This document shows, in pieces, positions 10,947-23,864 of a stretch of 33,453 bases of DNA. How positions within the stretch are numbered: the first letter of the stretch is position 1; each line of letters begins with the position of its first letter. The notes below the pieces were generated by a model. It was given only the letters and a program-made list of their open reading frames with translations, ran no database searches and was not told the origin of the DNA. Position numbers and translations under genes: made by a program. This DNA comes from Acidobacteriota bacterium (GTDB lineage: Bacteria; Acidobacteriota; Polarisedimenticolia; Gp22-AA2; AA152). Location: assembly GCA_022616665.1 (NCBI GenBank), contig JAKEFJ010000210.1, positions 1-33,453 of the forward strand, written 5' to 3'.

Positions 10947-11540
10947 ATGCGGCGGATCCTTCCCGGTCTCGCTCTCCTGATCGTCCTCACGAGCCCGGTT
11001 TCGGCTGCGGAGGAAACTCCATCGCCGGATCCGAAGAGCTCCCCCAGCATCGCAGGATTGAACGTGGAAATCCGCGATGGATTGGTGCTGGCGTCCTTCC
11101 AGCTCGTGGGAGCGCTGGATTCCGAAACGCGCACACGCATCGCCTCGGGGCTGGAGACGACCTTCGATTATCGGGTCGAGCTAGTCCGGCGGCGCCGCTT
11201 TTGGCCCGATGCTCGGGTCCGGCAGCATCGAATTCTGACTTCGGCGAAATTCGACAGCCTGTCGCGCCAGTATGGCCTGACACTGAAACTGGACGGGGAG
11301 GTCGAGCGCAGCTCCACAACCGACAGGGCAGAAGAAATGGAGCGGTGGCTCACCGGGGTGAAAGAAGTCTCCCTCGGAATGGCTTCGGAGCTGCTCCCGC
11401 AAGAGGAATATGCCGTGAGGGTCAAAGCCGACTTTCCGCCCCGCTTCATCCTGCTGTTCATTCCCTGGGACCGGGACACCGCCTGGGTCCGAGGTGCGCT
11501 TCCGCCCCTTCCCGTGACCGAGCATGAGCCGCACCCCTAG
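10947..11540 (+). CDS. DUF4390-type exported protein upstream of an NtrY-like kinase
   Basis: This roughly 197-residue protein has a signal peptide (MRRILPGLALLIVLTSPVSA). The mature part has strands and helices matching DUF4390, including IRDGLVLASFQLVGALDSET and RTRIASGLETTFDYRVELVR. DUF4390 proteins are commonly encoded next to ntrY-like kinases. Its role is unknown, but an extracytoplasmic input to the kinase is plausible. The start can be GTG 10941 or ATG 10947; ATG is preferred. The stop overlaps the start of the kinase gene by 17 bases, which implies translational coupling. No cysteine or catalytic motif is visible. Confidence 0.8.
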   Translation: MRRILPGLALLIVLTSPVSAAEETPSPDPKSSPSIAGLNVEIRDGLVLASFQLVGALDSETRTRIASGLETTFDYRVELVRRRRFWPDARVRQHRILTSAKFDSLSRQYGLTLKLDGEVERSSTTDRAEEMERWLTGVKEVSLGMASELLPQEEYAVRVKADFPPRFILLFIPWDRDTAWVRGALPPLPVTEHEPHP

Positions 11541-13749
11541 CCACCGGCCGCGTAGAGTTCGCACCGACCGCCTGGTTCTCTTCGGCCTCGCGGCGCTGCT
11601 GGCATTCTTTCTGGCCGGGTATTTCCTGGCCCGCCGGGCCCAGGAGTTCTCCTGGCCCTACCTTACGAATTCCGTTCTTCTTTCCTTCCTGGGAATCACC
11701 AACGCCATTCTGATCCTGACGTTGCTGAGCCTGCTCATGCGAAACCTCATCAAGACGCTGAGCGAGCGGAGGCGCAACATCCTGGGTTCGCGCTTCAAGA
11801 CCAAGCTGGTGTTCACCATGCTGGCCCTGTGGTTCGTGCCCTCGGGAATCATCTTCTGGGCGGCCCTGCACGCCATTCAGGGGAGCGTGGACCGCTGGTT
11901 TTCCACGCCGGTAGATCGGATTGCCGCGGGCTCCCAGGCCGTCGTGGACGCCTTCTATGGGGACTACGAACGCCGCGCCGCGAGCGCGGCGCTGAGAATC
12001 GGCGAACACCTTCAATCGCTGCATCTCCTGAATTCGGACACCTCCGAAGCGAGGATTCACCAGGAGATGGAGGCCATGCTCAAGTCGGAGCGAGTCGACC
12101 TGGTGAGCCTCTACCGCGGGGAGGGAGAGCCGCTGATCGTGGCGGATCCCCTCCTGCCGCGCATCGGCGAGCTGGAAGGCATTCCCTCCCAAGTTCTGGG
12201 TAGGGCAAAAAGCGGGGAGCCATTTCATTGGATCTCACGGCTTGGAAGCGGCGTGGTGGTGCGCTGCGGCGCTCCAGTCGAAGCCCCGGGAGGGGCGCCG
12301 GCGGCCCTGGTGGCGGCCGGTTTTTACATTCCCAAAGACATGGCCCAGCTCACCAGCCAGATCAGCGATTATTCAGAGAGATACCGACAGGACAAGGCGC
12401 AGAGGCGGTCCATCAAGAACGTCTACATCTTTGCCTTCGCCTTCATCACCTTGCTGGTGCTTTTCTCCGTGACCTGGATCGGCCTTTACCTGGCCCGGGG
12501 GGTCACCGAGCCTATCGGCATGCTGGCGGAAGGAACCCGGGAGGTTTCGTCTGGAAACCTGGACTTTCACCTGGAGGTGAGAACCCGGGATGAGCTGGGA
12601 ATCCTGGCGGAGTCCTTCAACAAGATGACCGCCGATCTGAAGGGCAGCAAAGAGACCATCGAGCGCTCCAACCGCGACCTCGTTCGGAGCAATCAGGAGC
12701 TGGAAGAGCGCCGGCGATACATCGAGGCCTTGCTCCAGAACATCACCACCGGCGTCATCTCCCTGGACGCCGCGGGGATCGTGACGACGCTGAATCGGGC
12801 CGCGTCGAGAATCCTCGGCCTGGAGTCCGGACGGGAGGTCGTGGGCCTGCCCTACCTCGGTGTACTGGCGGCGCCCGAGATGGGCGATCTTCGCAGCGCG
12901 GTGGAGAAGAGCCTGAGGGATCGGGATCTGACCCCCGCACGGGAAATGGCCTTGAGCGTCCAGGGAAATCCCCTGACCCTGGCGGTCTCTTTTTCGCCGC
13001 TGGCGGACGGGAGGGGAGGGGCGCCGGGGCTGCTCCTCGTGTTGGAAGACCTGACGCCCCTCATGCGGGCCCAACGAGTTGCCGCCTGGAGGGAAGTGGC
13101 GCGGCGCCTGGCCCATGAGATCAAGAACCCTCTGACCCCCATCCAGCTCTCGGCCCAGCGAATCCTCAAGAAGTTCAAAGAGGGAAGCCCGGAGCTTCCC
13201 GAGGTTCTGGAGCAGGGAACCGAGGCGATCGTCCGGGAAGTTTCGGGTCTCAAGCGGATGGTGGACGAATTCTCGCACTTCGCGAGGCTGCCGGCCGTGA
13301 ATCCGGTCTCGTGCGATCTTCACGCACTCATCGACGACACGGTGGCGCTGTACGGCGGAGTCGGCGGCGCGCTGAGTTTTGAAAAGCGCTATGATCCGCG
13401 CATGCCTAAGGTCCTGCTAGATCCGGAGCAGATGAAACGGGTGTTCGTGAACCTGATCGACAACGCCCGGGACGCCATGGGGGGCTCCGGGCAAATCACT
13501 TTTTCCACCACCTACCATCCCGAAGTGGAATCGCTCCGGGTGGAAGTGGCCGACGAAGGGCCGGGGATCCGGCCCGAGGATCGGGATCGACTCTTTGTTC
13601 CTTATTTCTCAACCAAGAAAAAGGGTACGGGCCTGGGGCTCGCCATCGTGAACCGAATCGTCTCCGACCATAGCGGGTACATACACGTCGCAAACAGACG
13701 GCCTCGGGGGGCATGCTTCGTCATGGATCTGCCTGCCCGCAGGGCTTAG
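11524..13749 (+). CDS. NtrY-type membrane sensor histidine kinase
   Basis: The protein has 741 residues. It has N-terminal transmembrane segments (about 15-37, 44-66, 92-114), an extracytoplasmic loop of about 180 residues, a further transmembrane segment near 296-320 and a HAMP domain (about 326-375, EPIGMLAEGTREVSSGNLDF). A PAS domain follows (about 395-510). The HisKA box LAHEIKNPLTPIQLSAQRIL holds the phospho-acceptor His531, and the ATPase domain shows N, G1, F and G2 boxes (DNARDAMGGSG, DEGPGIRPEDRDRLF, FSTKKKGTGLGLAI). This is the NtrY layout. It phosphorylates the sigma-54 activator encoded nine bases downstream. In other bacteria, NtrY/NtrX-type pairs respond to nitrogen, redox or envelope signals; the signal here is not known. 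Confidence 0.93.
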   Translation: MSRTPSHRPRRVRTDRLVLFGLAALLAFFLAGYFLARRAQEFSWPYLTNSVLLSFLGITNAILILTLLSLLMRNLIKTLSERRRNILGSRFKTKLVFTMLALWFVPSGIIFWAALHAIQGSVDRWFSTPVDRIAAGSQAVVDAFYGDYERRAASAALRIGEHLQSLHLLNSDTSEARIHQEMEAMLKSERVDLVSLYRGEGEPLIVADPLLPRIGELEGIPSQVLGRAKSGEPFHWISRLGSGVVVRCGAPVEAPGGAPAALVAAGFYIPKDMAQLTSQISDYSERYRQDKAQRRSIKNVYIFAFAFITLLVLFSVTWIGLYLARGVTEPIGMLAEGTREVSSGNLDFHLEVRTRDELGILAESFNKMTADLKGSKETIERSNRDLVRSNQELEERRRYIEALLQNITTGVISLDAAGIVTTLNRAASRILGLESGREVVGLPYLGVLAAPEMGDLRSAVEKSLRDRDLTPAREMALSVQGNPLTLAVSFSPLADGRGGAPGLLLVLEDLTPLMRAQRVAAWREVARRLAHEIKNPLTPIQLSAQRILKKFKEGSPELPEVLEQGTEAIVREVSGLKRMVDEFSHFARLPAVNPVSCDLHALIDDTVALYGGVGGALSFEKRYDPRMPKVLLDPEQMKRVFVNLIDNARDAMGGSGQITFSTTYHPEVESLRVEVADEGPGIRPEDRDRLFVPYFSTKKKGTGLGLAIVNRIVSDHSGYIHVANRRPRGACFVMDLPARRA

Positions 13750-13758
13750 GGTCCACTC

Positions 13759-15126
13759 ATGTCCAGAGCCAGAATCCTGGTGGTGGATGACGAGGAGGGA
13801 GTGCGTGCCTCGCTGATGAGCATCCTCCGGGATGAAGGCTATCTGGTGGAAACGGCGGAGTCCGGTGAAAAGTGCTTGGAGCTGCTCGGGAAAAACGAAT
13901 ACCAGGCGGTATTCCTGGATGTCTGGATGCCTGGCAGGGATGGGATGGAAATCCTCACGGAAGTGACCGCTCGGCCGGGTGCCCCGGCGGTGGTCATGAT
14001 TTCGGGCCACGGCACGATCGAGACCGCGGTCAAGGCGGCCAAGATGGGGGCTTACGATTTCATTGAAAAGCCCCTGTCGCTGGAAAAAGTGACCCTGACG
14101 CTGCGCAACGCCCTCAAGCAGCGGCGGCTGGAGGAGAAAAACCGCCTCTTGAAGGAGGAGCTTTCACAGGATGAGACGCTGGTGGGAAACTCCCCACCCA
14201 TCCGGAGGCTGCGGGAAGAAATCGCCCTGGCGGCTCCCACCCACGGTCGGGTGCTGATCCTGGGCGAGAATGGAACCGGCAAGGAGTTGGTAGCCCGGAT
14301 GATCCACTCCAGGAGCCTGCGCAAAGAGGAGCCCTTCGTTGAGGTGAACTGCGCCGCCATCCCGGAGGAGCTGATCGAATCGGAGCTCTTCGGCCACATG
14401 CGAGGCGCCTTCACAGGGGCGGTGGAGAACAAGCGCGGAAAATTCGATCTGGCGGACGGTGGGACCCTGCTTCTAGACGAAATCGGCGACATGAGCCTGC
14501 GGACGCAAGCCAAAGTTCTGAGGGTGCTCCAGGAACAGACTTTCGAGCCGGTGGGAGGAGCAGGCACGACCCGCCAGGTCGACGTGCGCGTGATCGCCGC
14601 CACGAACAAGGATTTGGCCCAATCCATCGCCCGGGGTGAGTTCCGTGAGGATCTCTATTTCCGTTTGAATGTCATCCCTCTAATGGTCCCTCCCCTGCGC
14701 GAGCGCCGCGAGGACATCCCGGCACTCACCCGGCACTTCCTCGAGCGCTTCGGCGCCGAGTATGCCCGGAGACGGGAGGTTTCGCCGGAAGCCCTGGAGA
14801 CGCTCAAGCGGTACGACTGGCCCGGGAATGTTCGGGAGCTGCGCAATACCCTGGAGAGGATGGTGATCATGACCGCCAAGAGCGAAATCCGGCTGGAAGA
14901 CTTGCCAGCGGCGGTCAGGGGGCAGGAGAAGGACAGCAGCGGCGCTTGGGAGGCCTATGACGGCACCTCCCTCAAAAAGGCCCGGGCCGCCTTCGAAAGA
15001 CGGTTCATCACCCACAAGCTGCAGGAGGTAGGGGGAAATGTGGCCCGCGCAGCGGAGCTGCTGGGGGTCGAGCGAAGCCACCTCTACCGGAAGCTCAAGG
15101 CCTACGGAATCAAAGAGGGAAGCTGA
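13759..15126 (+). CDS. NtrX/NtrC-type sigma-54-dependent response regulator
   Basis: This 455-residue regulator has a receiver domain (1-120) with phospho-acceptor Asp54 (FLDVWMPGRDG), then an AAA+ domain with Walker A GENGTGKE (near 170), the sigma-54 contact loop GAFTGA (near 215) and Walker B LLLDEIGD (near 240). It ends in a Fis-type helix-turn-helix (AARAAELLGV-like, VARAAELLGVERSHLYRKLK). All key residues are present, so it should activate sigma-54 promoters when phosphorylated by the kinase encoded just upstream. The pair reads most like NtrX from its layout and its NtrY partner. No sigma-54 (-24/-12) promoter was convincingly found in the window. Confidence 0.94.
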   Translation: MSRARILVVDDEEGVRASLMSILRDEGYLVETAESGEKCLELLGKNEYQAVFLDVWMPGRDGMEILTEVTARPGAPAVVMISGHGTIETAVKAAKMGAYDFIEKPLSLEKVTLTLRNALKQRRLEEKNRLLKEELSQDETLVGNSPPIRRLREEIALAAPTHGRVLILGENGTGKELVARMIHSRSLRKEEPFVEVNCAAIPEELIESELFGHMRGAFTGAVENKRGKFDLADGGTLLLDEIGDMSLRTQAKVLRVLQEQTFEPVGGAGTTRQVDVRVIAATNKDLAQSIARGEFREDLYFRLNVIPLMVPPLRERREDIPALTRHFLERFGAEYARRREVSPEALETLKRYDWPGNVRELRNTLERMVIMTAKSEIRLEDLPAAVRGQEKDSSGAWEAYDGTSLKKARAAFERRFITHKLQEVGGNVARAAELLGVERSHLYRKLKAYGIKEGS

Positions 15127-15166: not shown

Positions 15167-15241
15167 TAGCGGCGCCTTTTGGAGTTACGCGGTTTTTTGA
15201 GGCTGAAATCGGCCCGGAATGCAGTGTCTGAGAGGAATTCC

Positions 15242-15682
15242 GTGCGGTTGAACCGAGCTGTCGAATACGGCATTGAAGGTCTGACAGTCCTGGCGCGCGC
15301 CGACCGGCGCCGGTCCACTATGCTCCGGGAAGTTTCCAGGGCGACTTCGATTTCCGAGACCTTTCTCGCCAAGATTTTCCAAAAGTTGGTGCATAGCGGC
15401 CTGGTCCGCTCCCGGCGCGGTTTCCGCGGCGGCTTCTTCCTGGCTCGCCCAGCCAGCCAAATCACGCTGCGCGAGGTGATTGAGGCGCTCCAAGGTCCGA
15501 TTTCCTTCCCGATCCCGCGACGGGCACCCACGCCGAGTCAGATTCCTGACGCCGGCGAGCGCGGGCTCCTCCAGCAGGCCCTCGAGCGGACCCAGGCCAA
15601 GGTAAGGGCCGTGCTGGAGGAAACGACGGTTGCCGACCTGACCACGAACGCCTTCGCAGCTCCCAGTGAAAAGCTCGTTTAA
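15242..15682 (+). CDS. Rrf2-family transcriptional regulator
   Basis: The 146-residue product has the Rrf2 winged helix at its N-terminus: MRLNRAVEYGIEGLTVLA, then LREVSRATSISETFLAKIFQ and the wing RRGFRGGFFLARPASQITL. The helix LREVIEALQGP follows, as in the family. The start is GTG at 15242, with AGAGGA five bases upstream; Rrf2 proteins begin immediately with this strand/helix, so a longer TTG start is rejected. IscR, NsrR and RirA bind an Fe-S cluster through three cysteines; this protein has no cysteine at all, so it should sense something else or act without a cluster. It lies 38 bases upstream of the PHP gene and is the likely local regulator of the radical SAM operon. Confidence 0.88.
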   Translation: MRLNRAVEYGIEGLTVLARADRRRSTMLREVSRATSISETFLAKIFQKLVHSGLVRSRRGFRGGFFLARPASQITLREVIEALQGPISFPIPRRAPTPSQIPDAGERGLLQQALERTQAKVRAVLEETTVADLTTNAFAAPSEKLV

Positions 15683-16727: not shown

Positions 16728-16894
16728 TACGTCGATTCCAGGATTTCATGTACGCGGGAAGGCGCGCTCCGACCGGCGCGACCCCCGTTCCCCCCATCCG
16801 GTCGGAAGCGTGCAGAACCGGTCGAAGCCCTGCGGATTCTCGAATCACGATTCCTCGGCTGTCGTGCCGGGGACAGGAGAAAAGGAGTGGGATC

Positions 16895-18934
16895 ATGAAT
16901 CAAGCCGCCGTTCTCCATGAAGAAAAGCAGAAGCGAAAGAAGGGCACGGGCAGCGAGCCCGTCCGTGCCGTCAGCATCCAGAAGGTGAGCGGACCTCAGG
17001 TAAAGCCGGCGGCCACGCCGCGCGGAGTCGCCAGGCGCGTCGCCCGGCGGGTGATCGGCTCCTTCGCGCACCACCTGGCCAACACCGCCTGGAATACCTT
17101 TCAGGCCGCGAATCGCATGATCCCCCAGAAGCGGCTGCAGCCAAAATGGGCCCCGGCACCGCTCTTGAAGAGCTATGAGCGGAGCAAGCCCCCTTTGGGA
17201 TTTCCGCGGGAGACCGATTCCCTCTGTCCGAAGTGTGTGCTGGAGGTTCGTGCCGCCATCATGGAGGGGAAAGAGGACTGGCAGGTCTTGATCCAGGGAA
17301 AACCGGGAGAGATCAAGGCCCGCATCGTGGAGCGGGACGGCAGGATTTATATGGAGAAAGACTGCTCCCGACACGGACACTTCGAGGACTTGATGGCGGT
17401 GGACGCCGAGTTTCTCAAGCGGATGGAGAAGCTCTATCCTGGACGGGATTTCAGGATGGGCAAGGACAATCTCCATCACCATGGCTCCTCGTCGATCCAG
17501 TTTGGACGGGGCGCGGTCCTCACCGTGGACCTGACCAATCGGTGCAACATGATGTGCAACCCCTGCTTCATGGACGCCAACCAGGTGGGTTACGTTCATG
17601 AGCTGACCTGGGAAGACATCCGGGAACTCCTGGACAACGCCATCAGCATCAAGCCCCGCCGGCAGCTCTCGGTGCAGTTCTCGGGAGGCGAGCCCACCAT
17701 CTCCCCCTACTTCCTGGACGCGGTGGCGTATGCCAAGAAGCTGGGCTACCAGTCCACGCAAGCGGCCTCCAACGGGATTCGCTTCGCCCAGGAGCCCGAG
17801 TTCGCCAGGAAGGCAAAACAGGCGGGGCTGCGGCTCGTCTACCTACAGTTTGACGGCGTGGGAAATGAGAACAACCAGCACCGGAAAGTGGGCAATCTCT
17901 ACGACGTGAAGCTGCGAGCGCTGCAGAATCTCAAGGCAGCCGGGATTGACGTGACGCTGGTGGTCACCGTGGTGAACACGGTCAACAACCATCAGGTGGG
18001 CCCCATCGTGAAGTTCGCCATCGAGAACATCGACAAGATCAATGCCGTGTCGTTCCAGCCCGTCTCGTTCACGGGGCGGGACGATGAGATCCTCGATGAG
18101 GATCGGCACCGCCAGCGTTACACGCTCTCCCACCTGGCCCACGACGTGAAAGAGCAGCTCGGGGTCACCGAACCGCTGAGGGATTGGTACCCGCTGTCGG
18201 CCTCGGGGCCGTTCTCGGACCTCAAGGACCAGCTGGACGGCGTGGAGGCCCAGTTCGGATCGCTCAAGTGCGGTTGCCACCCGAACTGTGGGATCGGCAC
18301 CATGCTCCTGGTGAACCAGAACACCAAGGAGATCCTCCCCATCCCCCAGCTGCTCAACACCGATCAGCTTCTGGAAGACCTGAAGCAGGTGAACGATTCC
18401 GCCCGCGGGAAATTCATTACGGTGGCCCAGGTGGCCATGTCGGTGCTCCGGAACTTCCGATTCGAGGAGGCGCCGAAGGGAGTCGGGTTCTGGCAGCTGC
18501 TGAAAATCATCGACGGGCACAACGGCGGACGACTCAGCCTGGCTGAGAAGGCCCGCTACGAATGGCGCATCATGCTGGTGGCCGGAATGTGGTTCCAGGA
18601 CCTATTCAACTACGATTTCCGGCGCACCGAGATGTGCATCATTCCGTATGCCACCCAGATGGGGGAAATCTCCTTCTGCGCCTATAACACCGGAGTGGGC
18701 TGGCGGCAGATCGTCGAGCACGTCCACCAGACTGCCACCACCGCCGACTGGTTCGCCCGCAAGGGCCGCCATGCGGTCTACGCGGGAGGGAAGAACGTGC
18801 CCCTGCCGGACCAGGCATTGGTGGCGGGCGGCGCGCTCCCCACGGCCACCTCGGTAGCCGTGCCGGGCCTGAGAATCCTCTCCTCCCCTGCCCAACAGGC
18901 GGGGGCCACTGCGGGGGGCTGCGGCTGCCACTGA
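16895..18934 (+). CDS. Tes-like radical SAM enzyme (tetraether/membrane-spanning lipid synthase family)
   Basis: This 679-residue protein has a basic N-terminal extension (about 1-95). A CPKC pair (Cys111, Cys114) with a later Cys157 in the CSRHGHFEDL block resembles the extra metal site of Tes. The radical SAM CX3CX2C is Cys217, Cys221 and Cys224 (NRCNMMCNPCF), followed by FSGGEPT. Further along come FQPVSFTGRDD, a block I associate with Tes (MJ0619) and its homologues, a second cysteine set CGCHPNC (459, 461, 465) and a third, MCIIPYAT with FCAYNTG (Cys581, Cys595). Tes joins lipid tails carbon-to-carbon, using several Fe-S clusters; bacterial homologues are proposed to make membrane-spanning lipids. 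The exact reaction here is inference. AGGAG lies seven bases before ATG 16895; a longer frame exists but lacks support. The C-terminus ends GGCGCH. Confidence 0.82.
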   Translation: MNQAAVLHEEKQKRKKGTGSEPVRAVSIQKVSGPQVKPAATPRGVARRVARRVIGSFAHHLANTAWNTFQAANRMIPQKRLQPKWAPAPLLKSYERSKPPLGFPRETDSLCPKCVLEVRAAIMEGKEDWQVLIQGKPGEIKARIVERDGRIYMEKDCSRHGHFEDLMAVDAEFLKRMEKLYPGRDFRMGKDNLHHHGSSSIQFGRGAVLTVDLTNRCNMMCNPCFMDANQVGYVHELTWEDIRELLDNAISIKPRRQLSVQFSGGEPTISPYFLDAVAYAKKLGYQSTQAASNGIRFAQEPEFARKAKQAGLRLVYLQFDGVGNENNQHRKVGNLYDVKLRALQNLKAAGIDVTLVVTVVNTVNNHQVGPIVKFAIENIDKINAVSFQPVSFTGRDDEILDEDRHRQRYTLSHLAHDVKEQLGVTEPLRDWYPLSASGPFSDLKDQLDGVEAQFGSLKCGCHPNCGIGTMLLVNQNTKEILPIPQLLNTDQLLEDLKQVNDSARGKFITVAQVAMSVLRNFRFEEAPKGVGFWQLLKIIDGHNGGRLSLAEKARYEWRIMLVAGMWFQDLFNYDFRRTEMCIIPYATQMGEISFCAYNTGVGWRQIVEHVHQTATTADWFARKGRHAVYAGGKNVPLPDQALVAGGALPTATSVAVPGLRILSSPAQQAGATAGGCGCH

Positions 18935-22502: not shown

Positions 22503-23864
22503 TCAGAAAAGGTAAGGGTGCGTGCCGGCACGCTGCAGCTTTCGGAAGGCCAGATTGGCGAGGAGGTAGTGCATGGAGATGTGCAGATTGCGCGGCGCCG
22601 GCGGCAGGAATCGGCGGACAATGGAGCGCATGGAGAAGAAATCCCGATAGGTGGCCCAGTATTTGGCCACGGCGGTCTCGGGTGACATCTTCAGGGGCCG
22701 GATCACGGCGTTGCCGTAGTGATAGTCGTCCCAGTCGCGGGTAAGGATACGTCCCTCCCGATCCATCCGGTCGAAGAAGCGCGTGCCGGGGTAGGGCAGC
22801 GGCAGGTGAAATTTCGCCAGCGCGACCTTGTTCTGGATTAGGAACTCCAGGGTCCGATCGAAATCCTCCGGTGCGTCATCGTCCAGCCCCAGCATGATGA
22901 GGGCGACGATTTGAATCCCCCGCTCACGAATCTCCCGAATCATCTCCGAGTATTCCTTGGCCTTCGCCCAGTTCTTGTTGATCTCCGAGAGATTGCTCTG
23001 CCGGATGGTCTCGAAACCGATGGACAGCAGGAAACAGCCGGAGTCGGCAGCCAGATCCAGCAGCTCGTAATCCTGTGCGATCTGGATGGTGCACTGGCTG
23101 CACCAGCGCATCTCCTGAGGAGCCATGGCGCTGAAGAGCTCCTTGGCGTAGGTCCTGTTCGCCACGGGATTGTCGTCCATGAAGAGGACGCTTCGGGAGC
23201 CGAGGGAGCGAACATCCTTCAAGTCCCTGATGACGTCGCCTACCGGTCGCATCCTGAAGCCGCTGGAATGGTACTGGGCCACCGAACAGTAATCGCAGGC
23301 GAAGGGGCAGCCGCGAGTGACCAGCAGCGGGAACTGGAAGTAGTAATCCCGGTAGAGGGATTCCCGCATCAGCTCCTTGCGAAACAGCGGAAGACTCTCG
23401 AGGTCCATCCTGGGAAGATCTTTCCAATCGTGCAGCCGGTCGGATCGGTAGACCCGCTTCTTTAAGCCTCCGGAGCGAAAATCCTCCAAAAGCTCCGGCC
23501 AGGCGTACTCCGACTCCCCCAGGACGATCGCGTCGCAATGCTGCAGCGCCTGGTCGGGATTCAGCGAAACCCACTGCCCGCCCATCACCACCGTCTTGCC
23601 GAGCGCTCGGTACGAATCGGCCATCCGGTAGGCGCGGCCGATCTGCAGCCCCATGGCGGTAATGCCAACCAGGGCCGCGTCGGTGCTTTGCGGAGGAGGC
23701 TTCATGAAATCATCCACCAGCTCCACCTGGAAGCCGGATGGAGTGAACGCTTTCAGGTAGACCAGGGTCAAAGCCGAGGTCCAGTACCGCTCGCAGCGCG
23801 CCACGCTGCCATCGGGGTTGTTGTGGGACGAGGAGATCAGGAGGATTTTGTCGCGGCGATTCAT
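22503..23864 (-). CDS. Cobalamin-type (class B-like) radical SAM enzyme
   Basis: The protein has 453 residues. Residues 1-130 form a B12-binding-type Rossmann domain (KILLISSSHNN, then ALVGITAMGLQIGRAYRMAD and VVMGGQWVSLNPDQAL). The radical SAM CX3CX2C is Cys186, Cys190 and Cys193 (RGCPFACDYCSV). Downstream blocks (LFMDDNPVANRTYAKELFSA, LLSIGFETIRQSNLSEINK, LPLPYPGTRFFDRM) are typical of this B12-radical SAM superfamily, which includes hopanoid methylases and archaeal GDGT ring synthases. The substrate cannot be told from the sequence. Its ATG overlaps the stop of the glycosyltransferase gene (ATGA), so they are translationally coupled. The last 18 codons are duplicated at 19636-19691. Confidence 0.85.
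   Translation of the reverse strand: MNRRDKILLISSSHNNPDGSVARCERYWTSALTLVYLKAFTPSGFQVELVDDFMKPPPQSTDAALVGITAMGLQIGRAYRMADSYRALGKTVVMGGQWVSLNPDQALQHCDAIVLGESEYAWPELLEDFRSGGLKKRVYRSDRLHDWKDLPRMDLESLPLFRKELMRESLYRDYYFQFPLLVTRGCPFACDYCSVAQYHSSGFRMRPVGDVIRDLKDVRSLGSRSVLFMDDNPVANRTYAKELFSAMAPQEMRWCSQCTIQIAQDYELLDLAADSGCFLLSIGFETIRQSNLSEINKNWAKAKEYSEMIREIRERGIQIVALIMLGLDDDAPEDFDRTLEFLIQNKVALAKFHLPLPYPGTRFFDRMDREGRILTRDWDDYHYGNAVIRPLKMSPETAVAKYWATYRDFFSMRSIVRRFLPPAPRNLHISMHYLLANLAFRKLQRAGTHPYLF
22527..22582. repeat. Direct repeat copy B, inside the 3' end of the B12-type radical SAM gene
   Basis: This is the intact partner of the fragment at 19636-19691, with 51 of 56 bases identical and the same orientation. 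The two copies bracket 2.8 kb that holds only the TPR/FG-GAP gene and its promoter. Confidence 0.85.

Follow-up and report, generated by a model that had tools for sequence, protein, structure and literature searches.

A bacterial Tes-family radical SAM protein without the N-terminal [4Fe-4S] site of archaeal Tes is a strong candidate for membrane-spanning lipid synthesis in Acidobacteria

Introduction

Acidobacteria have long been known to contain membrane-spanning lipids, and iso-diabolic acid and the brGDGTs are the basis of a widely used climate proxy. The enzyme that forms the membrane-spanning chain in these bacteria is unproven, and a 33,453-nucleotide stretch of DNA from an Acidobacteriota bacterium (GCA_022616665.1, contig JAKEFJ010000210.1; hereafter the window) raises the question of whether one of its products, the 679-residue protein P0001, is such an enzyme. 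The initial annotation, made from the letters of the window, had read P0001 as a Tes-like radical SAM enzyme producing a lipid of this kind.

The lipid hypothesis for bacterial homologues of Tes is itself already published: 456 such homologues were found and a role in brGDGT synthesis was proposed for them (Zeng et al., 2022; PMC8941075), and a pathway in Solibacter was built from homologues of Tes and PlsA (Halamka et al., 2022; PMC10087280), while a study of 2025 gives the activity of the bacterial Tes homologues as unconfirmed (PMC11868695). With MA_1486 as the query, the reported identities were 42% in Koribacter, 40% in Solibacter, and 32% in Edaphobacter aggregans, which has a single homologue and makes iso-diabolic acid and small amounts of brGDGT (PMC8941075). 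Iso-diabolic acid has been reported in subdivisions 1, 3, 4, and 6 of the Acidobacteria (PMC13274423), and Pyrinomonas contains it along with fatty acids that are mostly iso-branched (PMC4644332).

Results

P0001 belongs to the Tes family

The features of the gene and its product are collected in Table 1. In the 679-residue translation, all the motifs to which the initial annotation had pointed were found at the positions claimed for them, namely CPKC at 111/114, CSRH from 157, CX3CX2C formed by C217/C221/C224, FQPVSFTGRDD from 387, CGCHPNC at 459-465, C581, C595, and the GGCGCH end. As orthologues occur in more than 150 genomes at 56-88% identity across most of the length, these matches, together with those to Pfam Radical_SAM (PF04055, E = 9e-22) and to the Tes profile described below, place the observation far beyond chance.

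Table 1. Coordinates of the P0001 gene and of its sites in the window
Feature	Position	Strand	Basis
Ribosome-binding site AAGGAG, preceding the ATG at 16895	16882..16887	+	Same start, after the same kind of site, in two close relatives (L002, L003)
P0001, Tes-like radical SAM protein of 679 aa (CDS)	16895..18934	+	ORF, Tes profile, PDB match, fold
Amphipathic helix in the N-terminal extension, residues 45-73	17027..17113	+	Confident in the predicted model
Rubredoxin-like iron site C111, C114, C157, H160	17225..17374	+	Invariant in 57 sequences
Lost N-terminal [4Fe-4S] site, residues 190-206	17462..17512	+	C73/C77/C80/H83 of MJ0619 replaced by N/H/S/Q
Radical SAM cluster motif C217, C221, C224	17543..17566	+	Invariant; Pfam PF04055
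SAM-closing loop equivalent FQPVSFTGRD (Q388, S391, R395)	18053..18082	+	Aligned to Q268/S271/R275 of MJ0619
CGCHPNC; C465 as first of the ligand positions in the C-terminal auxiliary cluster	18269..18289	+	Alignment, motif counts
Met565, equivalent of the labile ligand Met439	18587..18589	+	M in 35/35 clade A and 24/24 clade B rows
C-terminal auxiliary cluster ligand positions C581 and C595; Y585, equivalent of Tyr459	18635..18679	+	Invariant
GGCGCH tail	18914..18931	+	Predicted disordered; close relatives only

A profile search placed residues 107-612 in the NCBIfam Tes family (NF045702; E = 7e-105, 351 bits), as had been supposed, although the score did not reach the curated equivalog cut-off of 450; the second match, TrsS, attained 217 of the 490 bits required. 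Pfam further matched residues 139-168 to a zinc-ribbon family named after HMPTM. In the PDB, the best match by sequence was MJ0619/GDGT-MAS of M. jannaschii (PDB ID: 7TOL, E = 6e-69), and those to SkfB (2e-6) and PqqE (1e-4) were far weaker. An AlphaFold2 model built from 57 aligned sequences (mean pLDDT 79.6, pTM 0.83), in which the helix of residues 45-73 was confident and disorder was predicted from residue 641 onward, likewise returned 7TOL as the top Foldseek match in the PDB (TM 0.85, normalised to the whole length of the target; E = 8e-35), the runner-up fold being MoaA with a TM of 0.50. Profile, sequence, fold, and the tree described below thus agree that P0001 is a genuine Tes/GDGT-MAS homologue. 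A grouping with the peptide-modifying SPASM enzymes, which had been named as the result that would speak against a Tes assignment, was not obtained: SkfB and PqqE matched more weakly, MoaA gave a TM of only 0.50, and the Pfam search detected no SPASM domain in P0001.

The catalytic residues of archaeal Tes are conserved and one cluster site is lost

Four metal cofactors are present in MJ0619: one iron in a rubredoxin-like site (C9, C12, C33, H36), the radical SAM cluster, and two auxiliary [4Fe-4S] clusters, of which the N-terminal one is bound by C73, C77, C80, and a histidine and the C-terminal one has the labile Met439; Tyr459 lies near the substrate, and Q268/S271/R275 belong to the SAM-closing loop (Lloyd et al.; PMC9433317). 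Judging from conservation, the cysteine ligands of the C-terminal cluster would be C338, C455, and C470. When P0001 was aligned with MJ0619, C157/H160, C217/C221/C224, Q388/S391/R395, C465, M565, C581, Y585, and C595 fell on the matching residues, all of them identical in the 35 of 35 rows of clade A (the group of P0001, defined below), and C111 and C114 fitted the first half of the rubredoxin site. By this alignment, what had been listed as an extra CPKC plus CSRHG site corresponds to the rubredoxin-like site, the FQPVSFTGR block to the SAM-closing loop, and C465/C581/C595 to the catalytic auxiliary cluster. From the homologous positions we infer that the cysteines would cluster in the model as well.

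The correspondence breaks off at the N-terminal cluster. In the stretch from the rubredoxin CxxH to the radical SAM motif, the three-Cys motif was present in none of 101 clade A sequences, whereas at least three Cys residues were found there in 31 of the 31 clade B sequences checked. The two halves of the rubredoxin site are separated by 42 residues in 98 of the 101 clade A sequences, versus 20 in clade B and MJ0619. Of 80 named loci, 78 have the motif CGCHPxC and two have CSCHPxC, so that C459 and C461 are fixed extra cysteines beside the catalytic cluster. The N-terminal helix, with a hydrophobic moment of up to 0.56, occurs in clade A and is missing from clade B; from the model, one might guess that it is a membrane-surface anchor.

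The contrasts with archaeal Tes drawn in the initial annotation held in part. The basic N-terminal extension was borne out at about 100 extra residues, whereas the GGCGCH tail was rejected as a functional feature of the clade, being confined to close relatives, and both the missing cysteines of the N-terminal auxiliary cluster and the 22-residue insertion in the rubredoxin loop had been overlooked. The Tes-like assignment stands as family membership, and P0001 is not a copy of archaeal Tes.

Two clades of Tes relatives in Acidobacteriota

A Tes relative was present in 209 of 396 genomes of the phylum Acidobacteriota, and scores against two queries divided these relatives into clade A, the P0001 group with its 56-88% identity to P0001, and clade B, about 35% identical to clade A. 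Against MJ0619, clade B reaches 41% identity and clade A 31%. Clade A by itself was found in about 168-170 genomes, clade B by itself in 26, and both in 14 (hand count from the listings). In the contigs of named genomes, at least 574 relatives were detected and 80 were kept, comprising 47 from Acidobacteriota, 26 from Myxococcota (four strains of Sorangium cellulosum as well as Minicystis rosea among them), one MAG each from Gemmatimonadota, Latescibacterota, and KSB1, and a small number without assignment; the nearest named relative among the matches listed was Acidobacteria bacterium AA152 (88%). AA4 bears the label gp22, and the host can be placed among the acidobacteria near soil subdivision 22. 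The genes of Sorangium cellulosum and Minicystis rosea (L087, L093, L095, L096, L097) are clade A genes. Some acidobacterial genomes, such as G119 among those of f30, contain a second clade A copy (identities to P0001 of 59% and 58% for the G119 pair), and further functional splits are therefore possible.

In the tree, rooted on a TrsS-like row (L029) with a very long branch, clade A formed one group with 100/100 support on a stem of 2.8 changes per column. The topology suggested that clade A arose inside the bacterial B group; the placement relative to the archaea is weak, since MJ0619, itself on a long branch and taken from the PDB alignment, was the only archaeal row. In terms of its sequences, clade A is a bacterial branch defined by loss of the N-terminal cluster, the 22-residue insertion, and C[GS]CHPxC, and it spans Acidobacteriota and Polyangia.

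Set beside the published values, the homologues of Koribacter and Solibacter look like clade B and that of E. aggregans like clade A, the identities having been obtained with different queries (MA_1486 versus MJ0619). The Koribacter and Solibacter homologues, published with identities of 40-42%, are probably members of clade B (PMC8941075), and the 32% homologue of E. aggregans, an iso-diabolic acid producer, fits clade A (31%) better than clade B (41%).

Clade B, but not clade A, goes with DUF2229 genes

Ger has been described from Thermotogota (PMC13274423), and DUF2229 (PF09989), for which the control Thermotoga maritima gave a match, was used for Ger/PlsA-like proteins as a marker rather than as proof, because it also occurs in proteins other than Ger. 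No DUF2229 match was found in the host genome (89.5% complete) or in the eleven relatives of the same genus, family, and order that were searched. Across the phylum, DUF2229 was present in 28 of 40 clade B genomes, 23 of about 168 with clade A only, and 36 of about 180 without any Tes relative. By Fisher's test with hand-counted group sizes, clade B differed from clade A only (p = 5e-12, a nominal value because the genomes are related), and clade A only did not differ from the genomes with neither (p = 0.15). Clade B thus goes with the DUF2229 ether-lipid genes and clade A does not. On one contig in each of two genomes (G222:C20 and G333:C59), about 2.3 kb separate the clade B match from the DUF2229 match, both being on the same strand. 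The DUF2229 gene of these two genomes, of about 1040-1070 aa and apparently next to clade B, makes a candidate tetraether locus in Acidobacteriota.

Gene neighborhood

An operon logic was sought by clustering the ORFs around the 80 named loci and was abandoned: no neighbor was conserved throughout the clade, and no conserved neighborhood spoke for lipid synthesis. Among the neighbors that recurred, each at a few loci, were an EcsC-like protein, a protein kinase, a phosphoesterase, an FAD oxidoreductase, and a short-chain dehydrogenase. In the window, a gene for an Rrf2-family regulator without cysteines (15179-15682, +) lies two genes upstream of the Tes-like gene, and only five related loci have an Rrf2 gene in the roughly 1.1 kb upstream of theirs. 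A sensor kinase and an NtrX/NtrC-type response regulator are encoded as a pair at 11524-15126 (+), related ORFs being found near the Tes-like gene at several loci. A second radical SAM gene (22503-23864, -) encodes a 453-aa protein that has a B12-binding domain and bears a weak resemblance to HpnJ, BchE, and B12 radical SAM proteins of lipid biosynthesis; this protein could modify a lipid.

Discussion

The P0001 clade is, in our view, a strong candidate for membrane-spanning lipid synthesis in Acidobacteria. With a probability of roughly 0.6, we propose that the clade A enzyme is a Tes-family coupler that would join iso-branched acyl tails into ester-bound membrane-spanning lipids of the iso-diabolic type. 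Reasoning from the chemistry of MJ0619, two phospholipids would be bound with their iso-branched acyl tails in a hydrophobic tunnel, and SAM cleavage at the C217/C221/C224 cluster would generate a 5'-deoxyadenosyl radical, by which a hydrogen would be abstracted from the end of one tail. A sulfur of the C465/C581/C595 (Met565) cluster may hold the resulting carbon radical until, in a second SAM turnover, the radical of the second tail displaces the first from the cluster with formation of the C-C bond, the presumed product being iso-diabolic acid or a homologous dicarboxylic chain that spans the membrane. The N-terminal [4Fe-4S] cluster would not be needed for this reaction, and electrons may enter via the rubredoxin-like site. 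Clade A loci carry the labels of subdivisions 1 (L125), 3 (L085, L104, L127), 4 (L119, L121, L122), and 6 (L090, L103), which fits the reported occurrence of iso-diabolic acid (PMC13274423).

A rival reading is that clade A makes ether-linked brGDGT directly, as archaeal Tes does, with the ether bonds formed by Elb or Agps enzymes. A role in brGDGT synthesis has been proposed in print for the bacterial Tes homologues (PMC8941075; PMC10087280), and it would agree with the small amounts of brGDGT made by E. aggregans with its one 32% homologue. For clade A we consider this reading unlikely, as no Ger/PlsA-type DUF2229 gene was found in the host genome or its order, and such genes are no commoner with clade A only than without Tes, in contrast to their frequency with clade B. 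This absence argues for ester-bound diacids rather than tetraethers, and because of it the chains in the host are probably ester-bound; the phosphatidic acid bound in the solved Tes structure is ester-linked (PMC9433317).

The long stem of clade A also means that the substrate or the reaction may have shifted, and loss of the N-terminal cluster could mean a lost or altered activity. Both features, the fixed C459 and C461, and the N-terminal helix would suit an enzyme that descends from Tes but carries out a different reaction on lipid tails, such as macrocyclisation, desaturation, or coupling at another position; we nevertheless give this little credence, since no row shows a change in the ligands of the catalytic cluster, Met565, Tyr585, or the SAM-closing loop. 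A peptide or cofactor as the substrate is quite improbable: radical SAM families do diverge widely and the neighborhood holds no lipid-coupling genes, but the Tes match runs over the whole length including the C-terminal domain, the best PDB match is 7TOL, and the SPASM-type relatives are more distant as described above.

If clade A does couple iso-branched tails, its relation to clade B could be one of divided function, an extension that we put forward tentatively. Clade B together with Ger/PlsA might lead to ether-bound brGDGT, and clade A to ester-bound iso-diabolic acid in Acidobacteriota and to unrecognised membrane-spanning lipids in Polyangia (Sorangium, Minicystis). No report of membrane-spanning diacids in these Polyangia or in Gemmatimonadota was found in the accessible literature, and the same literature yielded no description of a two-clade split with different cofactor sets; nor did the cluster loss, the extension into Polyangia, or a division into two clades that differ in their partner genes turn up there.

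Clade A offers one named candidate for the chain-forming enzyme: it is sharply defined, occurs across the producing subdivisions, has one cofactor fewer than archaeal Tes, and is also present in cultured myxobacteria, and it thus gives a measurable iron count and strains to test. Searching by Tes homology alone lumps together two clades that differ in their cofactor sets and partner genes.

Set among known systems, P0001 represents a known kind of enzyme in a distinct bacterial form. With Tes MJ0619 (PDB ID: 7TOL, 7TOM; NF045702) it has in common the fold (TM 0.85), the rubredoxin-like site, the radical SAM cluster, the C-terminal auxiliary cluster with its Met, the Tyr, and the SAM-closing loop. 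It departs from MJ0619 in its identity of 31% and a score under the curated cut-off of the family, in the roughly 100 additional N-terminal residues including the helix, in being without the N-terminal [4Fe-4S] site that MJ0619 possesses, and, as in the rest of clade A, in the 22-residue insertion of the rubredoxin loop and the two extra cysteines (C459 and C461) at the catalytic cluster. Clade B belongs to the same family with the same catalytic residues but retains the archaeal layout, that is, CPxxCGxC plus His for the N-terminal cluster and the 20-residue rubredoxin spacing. The radical SAM (seleno)protein TrsS (NF045646) has the N-terminal part of the Tes profile in common, with a much weaker match. 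Mss (Sahonero-Canavesi, 2022), likened here by description, resembles P0001 in its proposed tail-to-tail coupling and in the Tes-like catalytic architecture of its published models (PMC13274423).
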